Below, one piece after another: positions 15,547 to 40,422 of a stretch of DNA of 43,122 bases. How positions within the stretch are numbered: position 1 is the first letter of the stretch; each line of letters opens with the position of its first letter. A model generated the notes under the pieces. That model had not been told where the DNA came from. It was given only the letters and a program-made list of their open reading frames with translations, and did not search any database. Origin of the DNA: Hyphomicrobiales bacterium (GTDB taxonomy: Bacteria; Pseudomonadota; Alphaproteobacteria; Rhizobiales; Xanthobacteraceae); the NCBI GenBank assembly GCA_027307405.1, contig DAHUXA010000009.1, positions 1 through 43,122 on the forward strand, in the 5' to 3' direction. Position numbers and translations under genes: made by a program.

Positions 15547-17103
15547 TTGAAGCTATTGTGGACCGCTAACCTGATGCCGGCGTCCCGTCGTTTTTCCGTA
15601 CAGGCCCGGATCGCCGCCGCTCCGGCGCGGGCTTTGGCCGCCATCTTGTTCCTGCATGCAGCAGTGTGGACGGCCCTTCCGACCCTGCTTTATGCCAATT
15701 TGCCGCTCGATCTGATCGAGGCGCTGGTCTACGGCCAGGAGTGGCAGCTCGGTTACGACAAACTGCCGCCATTGCCTTGGTGGCTGGTCGAAATCGTGCA
15801 TCGGTTGGTCGGTTACAATCTCGCATATTATTTGTTGGCGCAAATCGCAGTTGTGGCGGCCCTGTGGCTGGTCTGGCTGACGGCTCGGCCGCTAGTCGGC
15901 CCCCTCGGCGCACTAGCGGCAGTGCTGATCGTCGATGGCCTGCACTATCTGAACTACACGTCTGCCAAATTTAACCACGACGTCATCCAGCTGCCTTTCT
16001 GGGCCCTCGCTGGGTTTGCCTTCCATCGCGCTCTTCGCGGCGGGTGGATCGGACATTGGCTCCTGCTCGGCCTGGCGCTGGGAATGTCGCTGTGGGCGAA
16101 ATATTTCGTGGTCGTGCTGGCGGCGCCGCTCGCACTGTTCATCCTCTACGATCGGGACGCGCGCAAAGTGCTGGCAACGCCCGGACCCTACGTGGCGGCT
16201 GTGGTGGCGCTCGTCACCATGGCGCCGCACATCGTCTGGCTCATTCAGAACGATTTCCTGCCCTTCACCTACGCCGAACATCGCGCCCTGCCCTCGCGCG
16301 GATTGATCGACCACGTCTTGCATCCGCTGGAATTTGGTATCGGCCAGGCCTTTTTTCTCATTCCGTCTCTTTTGATTGCTCTGCCGCTGTTTTTCCCCCG
16401 GCAGGGCGGCAATCAGATCAAGCTTGACCCAAATGGCTTCGATCGCCGCATCGTAACCTGGCTCGCCTTTGGACCAATGGCGACTGTCCTGGTGATGTCG
16501 GCGATCAGTGGCCGTGGCACCGTTGCAATGTGGGGCTATCCGCTGTGGCTCTTTCTCGGCGTCCGGATCGTAATGGCAGCGAAGGCATTCGATGAATCGC
16601 GCGTTGCACGCGTGACCCTGATTTGGGCCGCGGTATTCGGATGCCTCGCGCTCGCGTTCATACTGAACTACGCCGTGCTGCCAAACTACGATCACCGCTA
16701 TCGCGCCGTTTTCTTTCCCGGCAGTGACTTGGGGCGCGAACTGTCGCAACGCTATCATGCGGCGACGGGGCGTCCGATCAGTTATGTGATCGGCAGCATG
16801 TGGGACGGCGGCAATGTGGCGCATTACGCGCCTGACCATCCGCGCGTGCTGATCGATGGCAGCCCCGAGCGCGCGCCGTGGATCGATCTCGCTGACCTCA
16901 GAACGAAAGGCGCGGTCGTGGTCTGGACCGCTGGCGACTTGACCGTCGTGCCACCGGGATTGCGATCCGTTGCGGCAGATGCCGCAGTGCAGCCGCCATT
17001 CCAATTGCACTATCTGCGTGGAGACTCGAGCGTCCCTATCGGCTGGGCGATCCTCTTCCCGAGACCATCTTTCGCCGCCGGACCGCTCAAGCCACCGCTT
17101 TGA
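15547..17103 (+). CDS. Polytopic glycosyltransferase family 39 (PMT/ArnT-like) membrane protein
   Basis: Multi-TM; N-terminal LIEALVYGQEWQLGYDKLPPLPWWLVEI and YTSAKFNHDVIQLPFWAL typical of bacterial GT39/PMT_2 proteins. TTG start at 15547; ATG at 15574 is an alternative. Confidence 0.82.
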   Translation: MKLLWTANLMPASRRFSVQARIAAAPARALAAILFLHAAVWTALPTLLYANLPLDLIEALVYGQEWQLGYDKLPPLPWWLVEIVHRLVGYNLAYYLLAQIAVVAALWLVWLTARPLVGPLGALAAVLIVDGLHYLNYTSAKFNHDVIQLPFWALAGFAFHRALRGGWIGHWLLLGLALGMSLWAKYFVVVLAAPLALFILYDRDARKVLATPGPYVAAVVALVTMAPHIVWLIQNDFLPFTYAEHRALPSRGLIDHVLHPLEFGIGQAFFLIPSLLIALPLFFPRQGGNQIKLDPNGFDRRIVTWLAFGPMATVLVMSAISGRGTVAMWGYPLWLFLGVRIVMAAKAFDESRVARVTLIWAAVFGCLALAFILNYAVLPNYDHRYRAVFFPGSDLGRELSQRYHAATGRPISYVIGSMWDGGNVAHYAPDHPRVLIDGSPERAPWIDLADLRTKGAVVVWTAGDLTVVPPGLRSVAADAAVQPPFQLHYLRGDSSVPIGWAILFPRPSFAAGPLKPPL

Positions 17104-23979: not shown

Positions 23980-24441
23980 TCAGCTGGCGTCACTGTCCGG
24001 CTGGCGTACACGGAATACTACGAAGTGCGAAAGCGAGAAATTGACGACGAAGCTCGCCAAGATAGACACTAACTTCGCAAACAGTACTGGCAGGAGGTAG
24101 GAAAGGGCGAACAGAATTGCCGTGCTTGACACCATGCCGGCAACGCCCGAGGCGGCAAAGCTTGTGTAGTCGCGCCAACGCAGAACGCGTCCCGATTCTG
24201 GACCGAAGGTAATGAAGGAGTTCATCACATAGGAGCATGTCACCGCCACAAGCCATGCCAAAACGTTTGCCGGCACCAATGGCCAGTGCAGGTAGGTGGC
24301 AGTTGTCCAAAAAACGCTGAAATCAATGGCAGTATTGACAACGCCGACCAGCGCGAAACTCACGGCCTTGAGCGCAAGAGCACGCTCGTGCCAGGCCACG
24401 ACGAGACGGTCGAAGATGTTTTGCAGGGGCGCTGGGATCAT
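23980..24441 (-). CDS. GtrA family small membrane protein (putative polyprenyl-phosphate sugar flippase)
   Basis: Four TM segments with GtrA signature FALVGVVNTAIDFSVFW and SYVMNSFITF. Start MIPAPLQNIF; longer ORF to 24546 possible. Confidence 0.88.
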   Translation of the reverse strand: MIPAPLQNIFDRLVVAWHERALALKAVSFALVGVVNTAIDFSVFWTTATYLHWPLVPANVLAWLVAVTCSYVMNSFITFGPESGRVLRWRDYTSFAASGVAGMVSSTAILFALSYLLPVLFAKLVSILASFVVNFSLSHFVVFRVRQPDSDAS

Positions 24442-24550
24442 CGTCCGCTTTCGATTAGCACGGCAAATGATGTCCCGGTAGGCCGGGCGCGACAGCGCCA
24501 TTCCGGTGCGGTATAGATCGCCAGAAAATGAGGGTGGCAAGGTCAATCAT

Positions 24551-25591
24551 ATGGCGGTGAAACCGACCAAAGCAGGCACACGCACGCGTCCAACGTCCAC
24601 GCCGACGCTGTCGGTCGTCGTGCCTTTGTTCAACGAGGCCAAGGGTCTGCCGGCCTTGCATGAGCGTATCGCCGAGGTCGCGCGTTACTTACAGGTCAAG
24701 CGCGGGCTAAACCTCGAAATAGTGTACGTCGACGATGGCAGCAGCGATGGGACGAGCGACGTCGCCAAATCCTTGCCCGCTATACCGCTCGACATTCAGG
24801 TGGTCACGTTATCGCGCAATTTCGGTAAGGAAGCTGCCTTGCTCGCCGGCCTCGATCACGCTCGTCCAGGCGCCGTGTTATTCATGGACGGCGACGGACA
24901 GCATCCCCCGGATTTGATCGACACTCTGGTCGCACGCTGGCTCGATGATAGTTACGACGTGGTCTACACTGCCAAGGCACACCGCGAGAACGAGGCCTTG
25001 TTAAGACGGATTGGCGTTCGGTTATTCTACGCACTGCTCAACTGGGGAGCACGCCACAAAATTCCGGAAGATGCCGGCGATTTCCGCTTGTTGTCGGCGC
25101 GTGCCGCAGAGGCGATGCGTCAGATGCCGGAACGCAACCGGTTCTTTAAGGGACTGTCGAGCTGGATCGGTTTTCGTCAGGTGCGCGTAGACTATGAGCC
25201 GGCAGCGCGCAAACATGGTGCGACAAGCTGGAACGTGCGGATGCTGGTGGGCCTCTCAATCGAAGGACTCACGTCGTTCTCTGTGGCACCACTGCGCGTC
25301 GCCAGCCTGCTGGGCGTATTGCTGGCCTTGACCGCTCTCTTTTTCGGCAGCTGGATCGTGTTGGAAACGCTTCTCTACGGCAAAGACGTGCCAGGCTATC
25401 CCTCGCTAGTGGTCAGCGTGATGGTGATCGGCGGCGTGCAGCTAATCCTCATCGGCGTATTGGGCGAATACGTCGGCAAGATGCTGTCCGAGATCAAAGG
25501 CCGGCCGGTCTATTTCGTCGCCGAACACAGCGTGAAGCGCGCGAGTGAATCGGCCAAGGCCCGGCCGGTAACATCTCGCGCGGCTGAGTAA
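24551..25591 (+). CDS. Glycosyltransferase family 2, DPMS/GtrB/ArnC-like polyprenyl-phosphate sugar transferase
   Basis: LSVVVPLFNEAKGLPALHERI, VDDGSSDGTSDVA, LSRNFGKEAALLAGLDHA, MDGDGQHPPDLI; two C-terminal TM helices. Confidence 0.93.
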   Translation: MAVKPTKAGTRTRPTSTPTLSVVVPLFNEAKGLPALHERIAEVARYLQVKRGLNLEIVYVDDGSSDGTSDVAKSLPAIPLDIQVVTLSRNFGKEAALLAGLDHARPGAVLFMDGDGQHPPDLIDTLVARWLDDSYDVVYTAKAHRENEALLRRIGVRLFYALLNWGARHKIPEDAGDFRLLSARAAEAMRQMPERNRFFKGLSSWIGFRQVRVDYEPAARKHGATSWNVRMLVGLSIEGLTSFSVAPLRVASLLGVLLALTALFFGSWIVLETLLYGKDVPGYPSLVVSVMVIGGVQLILIGVLGEYVGKMLSEIKGRPVYFVAEHSVKRASESAKARPVTSRAAE

Positions 25592-25602
25592 CTCGGCCCA
25601 TC

Positions 25603-26469
25603 ATGCGCACGGCACTTCGCCGCATTTGGCTGTGCGCCGATGACTACGGTATTTCTCCAGGCGTCAACGCCGGCATTCGCGAGTTGATCGTACGCGGACG
25701 TATAAATGCGACCTCGGTCATGGTGGCAGCGCCGTATTTCAACAAGGATGAAGTAGCCGCGCTCGATACGCTCAATTCAGGCAAAAAGCGCGCGGCTGTC
25801 GGATTGCACGTGACACTCACCGCGCCGTTCAAGCCATTGAGCGCGAATTTTGTGCCCGCGCGCGAGGGTCGATTTTTACCCCTCAACAATATGTTGCGGG
25901 CGGCGGCCACTCGACGGCTGAAGTCTGAAGCGCTGGTGATCGAAATCGCGACACAACTAAGGACATTTATCGAGGCCTTTGGCCAGCCGCCGGATTTTCT
26001 TGACGGCCATCAGCATGTGCATTTGTTCCCCCAAGTGCGGGACGCGTTCCTGCAAGTCGCCGCGCGTGGAGCACCCGACGCCTGGGTGAGGCAGTGCGGC
26101 CGTTCGCGTCCCAGCCGGCGCGTGCCTGATCGCAAGGCGCTAACGCTCGATATTTTGAGCATTGGTTTTCGCCGCAAGGCGAAACGAATGGGAGTTCCGA
26201 CCAACCCGGCTTTCGCAGGAACCTACGCTTTCAACGCCAAGGCCAATTTCGCCAAAATATTTCGGAGCTTCCTGCCAGGCCTGCCCGACGGCGGTCTAAT
26301 TATGTGTCATCCTGGCTTTGTCGATCCCGAGTTAAGAGCGCTCGATTCGCTGACGATGCTACGCCAGCACGAATTTGCCTTCTTTAATTCCAATGCTTGC
26401 CCGGAGTTGCTGGCCGAACACGGCGTCGCGCTTGGGCCCCCCACTGGCAAAAATGGCGGCGGCGCCTAG
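25603..26469 (+). CDS. ChbG/HpnK (YdjC-like) family carbohydrate deacetylase
   Basis: LCADDYGISPGVNAGIRELIVRGRINATSVMV, VGLHVTLTAPF, FLDGHQHVHLFPQVR, MCHPGFVDPELRALDSL: all four YdjC metal/catalytic motifs present. Confidence 0.92.
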   Translation: MRTALRRIWLCADDYGISPGVNAGIRELIVRGRINATSVMVAAPYFNKDEVAALDTLNSGKKRAAVGLHVTLTAPFKPLSANFVPAREGRFLPLNNMLRAAATRRLKSEALVIEIATQLRTFIEAFGQPPDFLDGHQHVHLFPQVRDAFLQVAARGAPDAWVRQCGRSRPSRRVPDRKALTLDILSIGFRRKAKRMGVPTNPAFAGTYAFNAKANFAKIFRSFLPGLPDGGLIMCHPGFVDPELRALDSLTMLRQHEFAFFNSNACPELLAEHGVALGPPTGKNGGGA

Positions 26470-26500: not shown

Positions 26501-27190
26501 ATGACGCCGCAAGAACGCCAAATGGTTGATGATCTGTTTGACCGGCTCGCACGGCTGGAAACAGCCCCACGCGATGCAGCAGCCGAGCGCGCGATCGCAG
26601 ACGGCCTTGCCAGTGCACCGCACGCGATTTATCCGCTCGTCCAGACTGTGCTGGTGCAAGACGAGGCGCTCAAGCGCGCCGACGCTCGCATCCGCGAGCT
26701 CTCAGGTGAGGGTTCCGGCAAACCTACGGGCAGCTTTCTTGATAGCATGCGTCAGGCGCTGACCGGACGCGCATCTGTACCAAGCGTGAACCCGAACACG
26801 TCAGTGGAACCCGATCCGCGCTGGAACAGGGACGGTACTGTTGGTGCAGCCGCAGGCCCTTCGCCGGGAGGCTCCTTCCTTGGCACCGCTGCGGCATCCG
26901 CCGCCGGAGTGATTGGCGGCGCTCTGTTGCTCAATTCGATCAGCTCGATGTTCGGCCATCACGGCAGCAGCGCGTTTGCGGCAATGCCGCCGACCGGCTC
27001 GCCGTGGGACAATAGTGCCGCTGGTAGCGACCTCGCGCGCGAGGCGGGTCTCAATGACATCGAGAGCGGTGCGCGCGGCGACATACAGCCAGCTGGGCTT
27101 TTTGATGATGACGAAGCTGGCGATGTATCTGATCTTGGGGATTTCGGCGGCGACGTGGGTGGAGATTTCGGCGGCGGCGACAGCGCCTGA
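26501..27190 (+). CDS. DUF2076 domain-containing protein with acidic/Gly-rich tail
   Basis: MTPQERQMVDDLFDRLARLE...AERAIADGLASAPHAIYPLVQTVLVQDEAL; C-terminal GDFGGDVGGDFGGGDSA. Confidence 0.87.
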   Translation: MTPQERQMVDDLFDRLARLETAPRDAAAERAIADGLASAPHAIYPLVQTVLVQDEALKRADARIRELSGEGSGKPTGSFLDSMRQALTGRASVPSVNPNTSVEPDPRWNRDGTVGAAAGPSPGGSFLGTAAASAAGVIGGALLLNSISSMFGHHGSSAFAAMPPTGSPWDNSAAGSDLAREAGLNDIESGARGDIQPAGLFDDDEAGDVSDLGDFGGDVGGDFGGGDSA

Positions 27191-27195
27191 GCCAA

Positions 27196-27963
27196 TCATA
27201 ACACCACAACTTTTGTACCGACCTTCACACGATCGTACAGATCGATGACATCCCCATTACGCATGCGGATGCAGCCTGATGACACATTTTGGCCGATTGT
27301 CCAGGGCTCGTTCGAACCGTGGATGCGATACAGCGTCGAGCCGAGATAGAGCGCGCGCGCGCCTAATGGATTATTCGGACCACCAGGTACGAAGTGAGGC
27401 AAATAGGGCTGGCGCTGAAGCATTTCGTCGGGCGGCACCCAATCTGGCCATTCCTTCTTGCCCGACACCGCGTGTACGCCGGACCACGTGAACCCCGGGC
27501 GGCCGACGCCGATGCCGTAACGCATCGCCTTGCCATCAGGTTCAACCAGATAGAGAAAATGATTTGGCGTATCGACAACAATGGTGCCCGGCGATTCCTC
27601 TCCGTTGTACGCAATCTGTTGCCGCAAGAAACGTGGATCTGTGCGGTCATCCGATCGCTGCGATCCCCGCATGGGATCAAGCAGTGATGAGTTGGCATAA
27701 GTTGGCGGATCGACTCGCTCCCCGCGATAATAATCCTGCTGCGGCGGCGGACCATACCATTGCTGTGACTCACGCTGAGGTCGCTGCGCTGAATCGCCAA
27801 ACAAGAATTCGATGAAACCGATGCCCGGCTTGGGCTGCATCTGCGATTGCGCGGACACGGCGCCCATCGACGAAGGCTTAGAGGGCGCGACCGAGACCGG
27901 TTGCGCAAATGCAAGATTGGACAATGAGACTGCTGCAAGCACCAATATAAACGAACATCGCAT
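27196..27963 (-). CDS. L,D-transpeptidase (YkuD domain), secreted
   Basis: Signal peptide MRCSFILVLAAVSLSNLAFAQP; YkuD motif YRIHGSNEPWTIGQNVSSGCIRMRNGDVIDLYDRV. Start trimmed from ORF-track 28296 to 27963. Confidence 0.93.
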   Translation of the reverse strand: MRCSFILVLAAVSLSNLAFAQPVSVAPSKPSSMGAVSAQSQMQPKPGIGFIEFLFGDSAQRPQRESQQWYGPPPQQDYYRGERVDPPTYANSSLLDPMRGSQRSDDRTDPRFLRQQIAYNGEESPGTIVVDTPNHFLYLVEPDGKAMRYGIGVGRPGFTWSGVHAVSGKKEWPDWVPPDEMLQRQPYLPHFVPGGPNNPLGARALYLGSTLYRIHGSNEPWTIGQNVSSGCIRMRNGDVIDLYDRVKVGTKVVVL

Positions 27964-28022
27964 TGACGCACCTTGAATGTCGTCGAATGCCACGGAGTAA
28001 AGAACCAAACGCACACCGATTG

Positions 28023-28037
28023 GTAAATCGCCGTTAA
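28023..28037 (+). promoter_or_regulatory. Candidate CtrA-like box (GTAA-N7-TTAA) between the L,D-transpeptidase gene and cheZ
   Basis: GTAAATCGCCGTTAA: one mismatch to TTAA-N7-TTAA; shares CGCCGTTAA with the site upstream of cheY. Confidence 0.3.
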
Positions 28038-28137
28038 ACAAGATTCGACATGGTAAACGAGTGGTTTCCACGTGCACGCAACGCAGCGTTAATGCTGCCT
28101 CGGTAAGAACATCGGCCGTAATGCGTGGGGCATAGGT

Positions 28138-28770
28138 GTGCAGCGCAAAGTATTTCGTATCGAACAGATGGTCGGAGGCGGCAGCGGCACGAGTGTCGCG
28201 GGACAACATGTCCACAGCCAGCCTGATCATACCAGCGAGGCACATTCCCGGAAGGAAGAGCAATCGACAGCGGCGCACGAGCTTGCAGCCATTCACGCTG
28301 CGATATCCTGCAACATGCGTGAACTTTCGGCACTCATCAACGACGGTAATGAACGGCGAATGACGCGCGCGGCTGGCGAACTTGGCGCCGCCGTTGGGGG
28401 AATGGAGACCGCCACACAGAAGATCTTGGCCTCGGCTGAGGTTATCGACGACTGCGCACGAGCCCTCGCCGCGGCCCTAAACAACGACTATCACCATGGC
28501 CTAGCGCAGGACCTGCAGGACCATGTGGTCCGCATCTACGAAGCCTGCAATTTTCAGGATCTCGCCGGCCAGCGGATCGGCAAAGTCATCGCGATGCTCG
28601 TCATGATCGAGGAGCGACTTATGGCCATGATCCAACACCATAGCGGGGCGAACGAGCAACGCGCTAAAGCGACTAAACCTTCGTCTGCCGGCGACCTTAT
28701 CAATGGTCCTCGACTTGACGGGGCTGCTGGCCACGCTAGTCAGCATGACATCGATGTGATGTTTGCCTAA
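28138..28770 (+). CDS. cheZ: CheZ-like chemotaxis protein phosphatase
   Basis: Long helical protein with the CheZ active-site helix VRIYEACNFQDLAGQRIGKVIAMLVMIEERLMAM (D and Q of FQDLAGQ conserved); N-terminus MQRKVFRIEQM. Confidence 0.82.
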   Translation: MQRKVFRIEQMVGGGSGTSVAGQHVHSQPDHTSEAHSRKEEQSTAAHELAAIHAAISCNMRELSALINDGNERRMTRAAGELGAAVGGMETATQKILASAEVIDDCARALAAALNNDYHHGLAQDLQDHVVRIYEACNFQDLAGQRIGKVIAMLVMIEERLMAMIQHHSGANEQRAKATKPSSAGDLINGPRLDGAAGHASQHDIDVMFA

Positions 28771-38661: not shown

Positions 38662-40422
38662 GTGAGAGGCATATTTTCGACGCTCGCCATCGTATGGCGA
38701 ATTGCCAGCCCTTATTTCAATTCCGAGGATCGTTGGCCTGGCCGCATCTTGCTAGCGGCGGTGATTGTGATCGAACTGTCGATCGTTGGCATCAATGTCT
38801 TGCTCAATTCGTGGAACAACACGTTTTACAACGCGCTGCAAGATAAGGATTGGAATGCGTTCATCTATCAACTCGGCTACTTCTGCGTCCTTGCGACCAT
38901 TTATATCTTCCTCGCTGTTTACCAGCTTTATCTCAATCAATGGCTTCAGATCCGTTGGCGGCGCTGGCTAACGCAAGCCTATCTCGATCGGTGGCTGGCT
39001 GAAGCCAATCATTACCGTATGCAATTGCTGGGTGATGCCGCCGACAATCCAGACCAGCGTATTGCCGAAGACGTCAAGGAATTCATCGATTCCGGCACAA
39101 CTGGAGTTGGGATCTTACCGATTGGCCTCGGCCTGCTGAATTCGGTGGTGACGCTCGGTTCCTTTGCAATCATCCTATGGAACTTGTCGGGAACTGCACC
39201 CCTGCACCTTTTCGGCACGACATGGGCGATTCCAGGCTACCTGTTCTGGGCAGCGCTGTTTTACGCGGTCATCGGCACGCTGCTCACCCATTTGGTCGGC
39301 CGGGCCCTGACTGCACTCAACTTCCAACAACAGCGCTACGAAGCGGACTTCCGCTTCAATCTGGTGCGTGTTCGCGAGAATTCCGAACAGATCGCCCTCC
39401 TCGACGGCGAGCAGACCGAGTGTAACCGGTTGCTGGCCCGGTTCGGCAATATCGCGGGAAATTGGCTCGCGATCATGTCGCGCCAGAAAAAGCTCACCTT
39501 TCTGACGGCCGGTTACGGACAGGTATCTTCGGTTTTTCCCTTTGTCGTCGTCAGCCCTGCCTATTTCGCCGGCGCGATCCAGCTCGGCGGCCTGATGCAG
39601 ACGGCCTCGGCCTTCGGCAGTGTGCAAGGCGCTCTCTCGTTCTTCGTGACGGCCTATCGGTCGATCGCCGAGTGGCGAGCGGTCATCGAGAGGCTCGCGG
39701 GTTTCGATGAGTCGATCGCCACAGCGAGAGCAGCCGCGACCCGGCCACCCGTCATCGCGCTTGCACCAAGCGATGCAGGTATCGTCAGCTTCAAGGATCT
39801 GGCGGTACAGCTACCGAATGGCGCGCTGCTGGTGAATGCCAACGATCTATCGATCAAGCTTGGCGAGCGCGTGCTGGTGAGCGGACCGTCCGGCTCCGGC
39901 AAGTCGACGCTGTTTCGTGCCTTGGCCGGCATTTGGCCGTTTGGCAAAGGCACAATCACCGTGCCGAAAAATGCGCGCGTGATGATCCTGCCGCAGCGCC
40001 CCTACTTTCCGATCGCAACGCTTGCCGCCGCGGTCGCTTACCCGGCTGAGCCTGACAGCTTCGATGCCGGCAAAGTGGCGGAGCTGATCGAAGCGGTCGG
40101 TTTGTCTGCCCTCGCCTCTCGCATTGAACAAGAAGCGCATTGGAACCGCATGCTGTCGCTTGGCGAGCAGCAACGCCTAGGAATCGCGCGCGCGCTCCTC
40201 TATGCGCCCGACTTTCTGTTCCTGGACGAGGCCACGGCTTCGCTCGACGAGCCGGCCGAGGCCGCGCTCTATCAATTGCTGGAGCGCCGGCTTGCACGCG
40301 CCACGATTGTGTCGATCGGCCACCGGGCGACCCTTGCGGCGTTTCACGAACGCCGGCTCGCTTACAGCCGGGACGGCGATCATTACACCGTGCGGGAGGC
40401 AAGCCTGGCGCCCGCCGAATAG
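38662..40422 (+). CDS. ABC transporter, fused permease/ATPase (YddA / SbmA-BacA-related, ABC_membrane_2 type)
   Basis: NSWNNTFYNALQDKDWNAFIYQL, QIRWRRWLTQAYLDRWL, NPDQRIAEDVKEF; Walker A GPSGSGKSTLFRALAG, signature LSLGEQQRLGIARALL, Walker B FLFLDEATASLD. GTG start with AGGAG upstream. Confidence 0.92.
   Translation: MRGIFSTLAIVWRIASPYFNSEDRWPGRILLAAVIVIELSIVGINVLLNSWNNTFYNALQDKDWNAFIYQLGYFCVLATIYIFLAVYQLYLNQWLQIRWRRWLTQAYLDRWLAEANHYRMQLLGDAADNPDQRIAEDVKEFIDSGTTGVGILPIGLGLLNSVVTLGSFAIILWNLSGTAPLHLFGTTWAIPGYLFWAALFYAVIGTLLTHLVGRALTALNFQQQRYEADFRFNLVRVRENSEQIALLDGEQTECNRLLARFGNIAGNWLAIMSRQKKLTFLTAGYGQVSSVFPFVVVSPAYFAGAIQLGGLMQTASAFGSVQGALSFFVTAYRSIAEWRAVIERLAGFDESIATARAAATRPPVIALAPSDAGIVSFKDLAVQLPNGALLVNANDLSIKLGERVLVSGPSGSGKSTLFRALAGIWPFGKGTITVPKNARVMILPQRPYFPIATLAAAVAYPAEPDSFDAGKVAELIEAVGLSALASRIEQEAHWNRMLSLGEQQRLGIARALLYAPDFLFLDEATASLDEPAEAALYQLLERRLARATIVSIGHRATLAAFHERRLAYSRDGDHYTVREASLAPAE

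Follow-up and report, generated by a model that had tools for sequence, protein, structure and literature searches.

A conserved GT2-YdjC gene pair as a candidate undecaprenyl-phosphate-hexosamine donor module with a dispersed transferase

Background

A GT39 transferase, a GT2 glycosyltransferase, a GtrA protein and a YdjC-type deacetylase together make up the gene content of Bordetella lgm and, without GtrA, that of Francisella flm/naxD. The window (the whole 43,122-nucleotide stretch of DNA analysed) carries gtrA, GT2 and YdjC genes side by side and a GT39 gene 8 kb away. It comes from a soil bacterium with a 4.1-Mb genome in 459 contigs, whose nearest named relatives are Pseudolabrys. The original prediction joined these four genes in an Flm/Lgm-like pathway decorating lipid A or another envelope glycan with a free aminosugar. 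Does the locus encode such a pathway and, if so, which protein transfers the sugar, and to what acceptor?

Gene content of the locus

All four genes are present and belong to the families first assigned to them (Table 1). In Pfam profile searches, the GtrA protein matches PF04138 (80 bits, 2e-22), the GT2 matches PF00535 (98.8 bits, 4e-28) and the YdjC protein matches PF04794 (181 bits, 5e-53). Gene calls near the locus were made with a codon-usage caller, as longest-ORF calls are misleading in this high-GC DNA. Homology in GtrA extends from residue 64 of a 188-aa ORF onward, and the start in Table 1 follows the coding potential. The most likely GT2 start is the ATG at 24551 rather than the GTG at 24506. 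With these corrected starts, gtrA and GT2 are divergent over approximately 109 bp and so do not overlap. The divergent arrangement first described therefore stands, with both start sites moved on the basis of homology and coding potential. The 11-bp gap between GT2 and YdjC was confirmed.

Table 1. Positions of the features discussed in the text (unprefixed positions refer to the window; prefixes denote loci or contigs elsewhere)
Feature	Position	Strand	Remarks
gtrA	23980..24441	-	GtrA/DPMS-type small membrane protein, four TM helices predicted; candidate lipid-linked-sugar flippase
gtrA-GT2 divergent intergenic region	24442..24550	.	starts from homology and coding potential
GT2	24551..25591	+	PgfS/GtrB/ArnC-like polyprenyl-phosphate glycosyltransferase, two C-terminal TM helices
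YdjC-family deacetylase	25603..26469	+	candidate undecaprenyl-P-N-acetylhexosamine deacetylase
PMT_2/GT39 transferase (window GT39)	15547..17103	+	PF13231 (98.2 bits, 7.5e-28); not assigned to the module
Type-B GT39 of the host	G000:C412:12574-14226		other contig, beside sodB
GT2-GT39 fusion	L242:6788-9619	-	divergent from YdjC, overlapping the YdjC start
Multi-TM proteins, genus g33	L206:7921-9471; L208:8218-9834		516-538 residues; encoded upstream of GT2 within the YdjC cluster
GT39 orthologue with its own GT2 paralogue, genus g38	L044:13925-16561; L045:14256-16879		divergent
GT2-GtrA fusion beside GT39	L086:4911-7590 (G061); L093:4951-7736 (G104); L092:4512-7262 (G166)		

Conservation of the GT2-YdjC pair

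YdjC is encoded by 188 of 200 genomes of the family Xanthobacteraceae/Nitrobacteraceae (156/160 among good genomes). A GT2 orthologue (60-77% identity in relatives) is found in 26 of 27 mostly complete genomes, and the exception, G152, also lacks YdjC. Within genus g23, eight genomes have both genes and three (G104, G152 and G166) have neither; two of these YdjC-negative genomes keep only GT2 paralogues of 30-31% identity. At 60 of 98 loci the two genes overlap by 4 bp, a spacing of -4 bp. Much of the family retains the order hisZ-hisG-GT2-YdjC-DUF2076-L,D-transpeptidase-groESL, and so do most of the 80 named Pseudolabrys, Rhodoplanes, Rhodopseudomonas and Bradyrhizobium loci. Because GT2 and YdjC are syntenic across the family, their pairing is not due to chance, and the two genes constitute one unit.

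At distant homologous GT2-YdjC loci, no his, DUF2076, transpeptidase or gro genes were recognised, so these genes probably reflect local synteny only. This may apply to window positions 26501-28296, where the DUF2076 and L,D-transpeptidase genes follow YdjC as in most family members, but the DUF2076 gene lies 32 bp downstream of YdjC on the same strand. Elsewhere in the window (38662-40422) is a homologue of SbmA/BacA-like and peroxisomal-type ABC transporters, for which the best NCBIfam models score under their cut-offs. Genes related to this one also lie close to YdjC in several of the more distant relatives.

GtrA as an optional partner

The window gtrA encodes the only GtrA found in the host genome. 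A gtrA gene diverges from an adjacent GT2 at each of the six long Pseudolabrys loci and, counting every lineage, at 31 of the 65 long loci, but lies beside GT2 in only 1 of 26 long Bradyrhizobium and Rhodopseudomonas loci; GtrA is absent at the locus in Bradyrhizobium and in most Rhodopseudomonas. GtrA thus seems to be optional for the GT2-YdjC module. Independence from the deacetylase, named beforehand as a finding that would speak against the prediction, was accordingly found for one protein of the two: GtrA is dispensable, whereas GT2 is kept with YdjC.

In many complete genomes that lack a local gtrA, the sole GtrA is part of a frame of approximately 400 residues adjoining a different GT39. 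At the two loci read (L086 and L093), this frame joins GtrA to another, distant GT2; L092 carries GT2, GtrA and GT39 together in one 917-residue frame. The same pattern was seen by coordinates in G024, G043, G065, G096, G109, G141, G154, G170 and G199. The GT2-GtrA fusion and its GT39 are a second, independent lipid-linked sugar system, which possibly mannosylates Bradyrhizobium lipid A. Where a local gtrA is missing, the flippase step of the YdjC module would be carried out by another protein or by this fusion protein.

The candidate transferase

No GT39 gene adjoins GT2-YdjC in the host genome or in the 80 named loci. Where such linkage does occur in the family (g23: L205, L207 and L268), the GT39s are of a type, here called type B, that belongs to a different clade from the window GT39. 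The linked GT39s of L198, L199 and L263 are also type B. Locus L242 (G371) encodes a 944-residue protein, next to YdjC, in which a GT2 (residues 44-363) is followed by a type-B GT39 (residues 403-941); this naturally occurring fusion links the two enzymes directly. The only type-B GT39 of the host is encoded beside a gene that, from its own sequence, we take to be an Fe/Mn-superoxide dismutase (sodB), an arrangement common to many relatives. Its AlphaFold2 model (pLDDT 81.8) is closest in structure to ArnT. PDB sequence searches with the window GT39 and the type-B GT39 gave no match for either.

Type-B GT39s are found at E <= 1e-30 in 134 of 160 good genomes, compared with 156 for YdjC, and a few YdjC-negative genomes carry one. 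The host protein falls in an unlinked type-B subclade, beside rather than inside the linked subclades. Type B was rejected as a strict co-occurrence partner, with no one-to-one match to YdjC in the 200-genome search, and the case for it therefore rests on linkage, fusion, clade and shared absence from three genomes belonging to one genus. On these grounds the type-B GT39 beside sodB is considered, at roughly even odds, the most likely transferase of the host, ahead of the window GT39; other transferases account for most of the remaining probability.

The competing reading that survives best is that the donor is made as described but that another GT-C protein, or several lineage-specific ones, transfers the sugar to LPS core, O-chain or another glycan. 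Across the family no single GT39 family tracks YdjC, and the GT39s linked to YdjC derive from several clades. At two loci of genus g33 (L206 and L208), moreover, the neighbours are multi-TM proteins with no match in Pfam, possibly an undescribed GT-C type in place of GT39. Type-B linkage and fusion nevertheless recur in several independent lineages, and this alternative is considered unlikely.

The window GT39, 8 kb away, was originally proposed, speculatively, as the partner of the pair. Close orthologues are found in five of the six Pseudolabrys tested (host included), and others in one g26 genome (48% identity) and in g38 (40-41%). It is missing from G128, also a Pseudolabrys, and from the majority of the family, even though these genomes carry GT2-YdjC. 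In g38 the orthologue lies approximately 10-14 kb from GT2-YdjC and is divergent from a GT2 paralogue of its own, which is 32-34% identical to the window GT2. At this position the paralogue was either lost by, or never present in, the host and its close relatives. In some genomes, betaproteobacteria-like ones and others, the YdjC-linked GT39s (L253, L254, L256-L258, L260 and L265) fall into a superclade with the window GT39 (SH-aLRT 95), so that protein type alone is compatible with a role for it. Across the family, the expected co-occurrence of the four genes holds for GT2 and YdjC only, GtrA being optional and this GT39 absent from most genomes. The window GT39 was rejected as the best guess on phyletic and linkage grounds, and it is improbable that it is the transferase of the module.

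The acceptor

Lipid A, named as one possible target in the original prediction, is a doubtful acceptor. Bradyrhizobium lipid A is a diaminoglucose disaccharide carrying galacturonic acid and a mannose disaccharide (PMC6102379) and has no phosphate (PMC7663294), while that of Oligotropha carries two galacturonic acids (PMC7663294). No added hexosamine is found on the published lipid A of either Bradyrhizobium (PMC6102379) or Oligotropha (PMC7663294). The reference list of PMC7663294 cites work on a neutral lipid A of Bradyrhizobium elkanii; B. elkanii WSM2783 has GT2-YdjC and lacks a local GtrA. A literature search found no lipid A structure for Pseudolabrys and nothing usable on GtrA in connection with Bradyrhizobium lipid A. 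With no lipid A phosphate in Bradyrhizobium, some relatives, at least, do not offer the Bordetella-type acceptor, and for the family as a whole a role of lipid A phosphate as acceptor is unlikely. The acceptor may instead be LPS core, O-chain, another envelope glycan or a form of lipid A made under other conditions.

The pathway as first proposed, with the same donor, the window GT39 as transferase and lipid A as acceptor, draws on the location of that GT39 in the same replicon region, its Pseudolabrys orthologues, the betaproteobacterial superclade and the finding that several Pseudolabrys with the window-type GT39, Pseudolabrys sp. Root1462 among them, have only weak type-B matches. Against this stand its absence from G128 and most of the family, the adjoining GT2 in g38, the type-B identity of those GT39s that are linked with GT2-YdjC within the family and the published lipid A of relatives. 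The combination is quite improbable.

The YdjC deacetylase

The YdjC protein has the motifs ADDYG, GLH69, DGH136QH138 and CH236PG. The metal-binding motifs are complete, as first described, and 37 homologues with identities down to 35% all conserve H69, D134, H136, H138, H236, D241, R254 and E257. Its AlphaFold2 model (pLDDT 94.3) matches EF3048 (2i5i), ChbG (7vi8) and CmCBDA (8jqe) in Foldseek, with ArnD as a distant structural match. In a tree of 60 proteins, it falls in a 51-member clade (SH-aLRT 100), of which 43 members are encoded directly beside a GT2, five within approximately 1-4 kb of one and three without a GT2; one of the five (L276) has a very long branch and an unsure placement. 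Several members belong to compact GT39-GT2-GtrA-YdjC clusters (in L205, L257 and L263 the GT39 and GtrA were checked with Pfam), including betaproteobacterial operons with this gene content. From the comparison with these unnamed, lgm-like betaproteobacterial operons, the window protein is a putative orthologue of LgmC and NaxD. Together, the clade, the adjacency to GT2 and the complete operons support undecaprenyl-P-hexosamine synthesis.

A broad family such as YdjC, with a fold shared with ChbG and CmCBDA, also allows a substrate that is not polyprenyl-linked, such as a hopanoid glycoside (as for HpnK) or a chito-oligosaccharide (as for ChbG), next to a GT2 by chance. This is very improbable. 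The protein scores 64.2 bits against the HpnK model TIGR03473 (cut-off 232.6) and 99.5 bits against the ChbG model PRK02134 (cut-off 227), and the HpnK (L271 and L277) and ChbG (L275) proteins recognised by NCBIfam fall outside its clade; the pairing with GT2 is, moreover, obligate across proteobacteria. HpnK and ChbG were both rejected as identities, and the clustering with HpnK that would have spoken against the original prediction was not seen. From its sequence, the deacetylase is neither an HpnK nor a ChbG and is assigned to a GT2-linked (Lgm/Flm-like) clade.

The GT2 glycosyltransferase

The GT2 is a polyprenyl-phosphate glycosyltransferase of the ArnC/GtrB kind. It has the catalytic motifs DDGSSDGT (61) and DGDGQ (113) in addition to the two C-terminal TM helices originally noted. 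It scores 248 bits against the equivalog model PgfS and 147 bits against ArnC, both under cut-off, and the nearest solved structures are Sll0501 (3e-77) and then ArnC (2e-37). For a second GT2 of the host genome (contig C417), the neighbours checked were TctA/TctB transporters, which are uninformative.

An RgtE-type role, in which the GT2 would synthesise undecaprenyl-P-GalA for the galacturonylation of lipid A, might be supposed from the GalA on lipid A and the RgtE-like GT2 of the relative Oligotropha (PMC7663294), but it was rejected as the least probable reading of all: the Oligotropha rgtE homologue clusters with lpxE and rgtF (OCA5_c19730-19750) at a separate locus for which YdjC is not reported, no PAP2 or rgtF-like neighbour was seen for the window GT2, which adjoins the deacetylase, and GalA has no N-acetyl group to remove, yet the YdjC-GT2 pairing is obligate.

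Proposed model

The proposed model is as follows. At the cytoplasmic face of the membrane, the GT2 would use a UDP-sugar to load N-acetylhexosamine onto undecaprenyl phosphate. The YdjC protein would then deacetylate the product, forming undecaprenyl-P-hexosamine whose amine is free. GtrA, encoded divergently, may help this lipid-linked aminosugar across the inner membrane. On the periplasmic side, a GT-C transferase, most likely the type-B GT39 beside sodB, would add the aminosugar to an envelope glycan. The model builds on the observed gene content, conserved pairing, clade membership and intact active-site motifs; the substrate (HexNAc on Und-P), the sequence of reactions, the role of GtrA and the choice of transferase are predicted. 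The proposal as a whole is given a probability of about 0.68; the choice of the type-B GT39, taken by itself, stands at roughly even odds.

The host module is thus best read as an Flm/Lgm-like aminosugar pathway in variant form, with the transferase gene placed elsewhere in the genome. Of the earlier interpretation, the part that concerns the donor is well supported: the GT2-YdjC pair, the divergent GtrA (in Pseudolabrys and some others) and the YdjC clade all fit it. The window GT39 and lipid A do not.

The most interesting feature is that a large family of soil bacteria and symbionts has a near-universal aminosugar donor pair with no obvious destination in its published lipid A, which points to an unrecognised envelope modification. 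Tentatively, an undescribed and nearly universal aminosugar modification may be common to Bradyrhizobium, Rhodopseudomonas and Pseudolabrys, with some envelope glycan, not lipid A phosphate, as its target. A dispersed pathway with a type-B transferase would make it from lipid-linked hexosamine. Free aminosugars alter envelope charge and hence sensitivity to cationic peptides, including those that some legumes use on Bradyrhizobium. The concrete candidates are one donor pair, one optional flippase and one transferase subfamily.

Comparison with known systems

Like Bordetella lgmABCD (PMC4993483, PMC11895810), the host system appears to be a multi-gene pathway with a transferase, a GT2 and a YdjC-type deacetylase. 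In Bordetella, the presence of glucosamine on the lipid A phosphate requires lgmA-C but not lgmD (PMC4993483); GtrA is likewise seemingly dispensable in the window-type module. The host differs in that its GT39 is outside the cluster and the likely transferase belongs to another clade, and Bradyrhizobium lipid A lacks phosphate. The Francisella FlmF2/NaxD/FlmK and Acinetobacter NaxD systems, which place galactosamine on lipid A, similarly combine an ArnC-like GT2, a YdjC-type Und-P-HexNAc deacetylase and an ArnT-like transferase (PMC8149597, PMC10927774), and NaxD is reported to deacetylate Und-P-GalNAc (PMC10927774). The likely host transferase, in contrast, is unlinked, and the likeness is one of description rather than of named sequences.

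The ArnC-ArnD-ArnT pathway follows the same logic of a lipid-linked sugar, N-acyl removal, flipping and GT-C transfer; the GT2 resembles ArnC and the type-B model resembles ArnT. Unlike YdjC, however, ArnD belongs to another deacylase family, and the Arn sugar is formamido-arabinose.

The GtrA/GtrB/Gtr serotype-conversion and CsbB/GtcA/YfhO systems use a GtrB/PgfS-like GT2, a GtrA flippase and a GT-C transferase. The host locus shares the GT2 and GtrA with these systems, and the closest solved GT2 is Sll0501/GtrB. They have no deacetylase, whereas the host module has YdjC.
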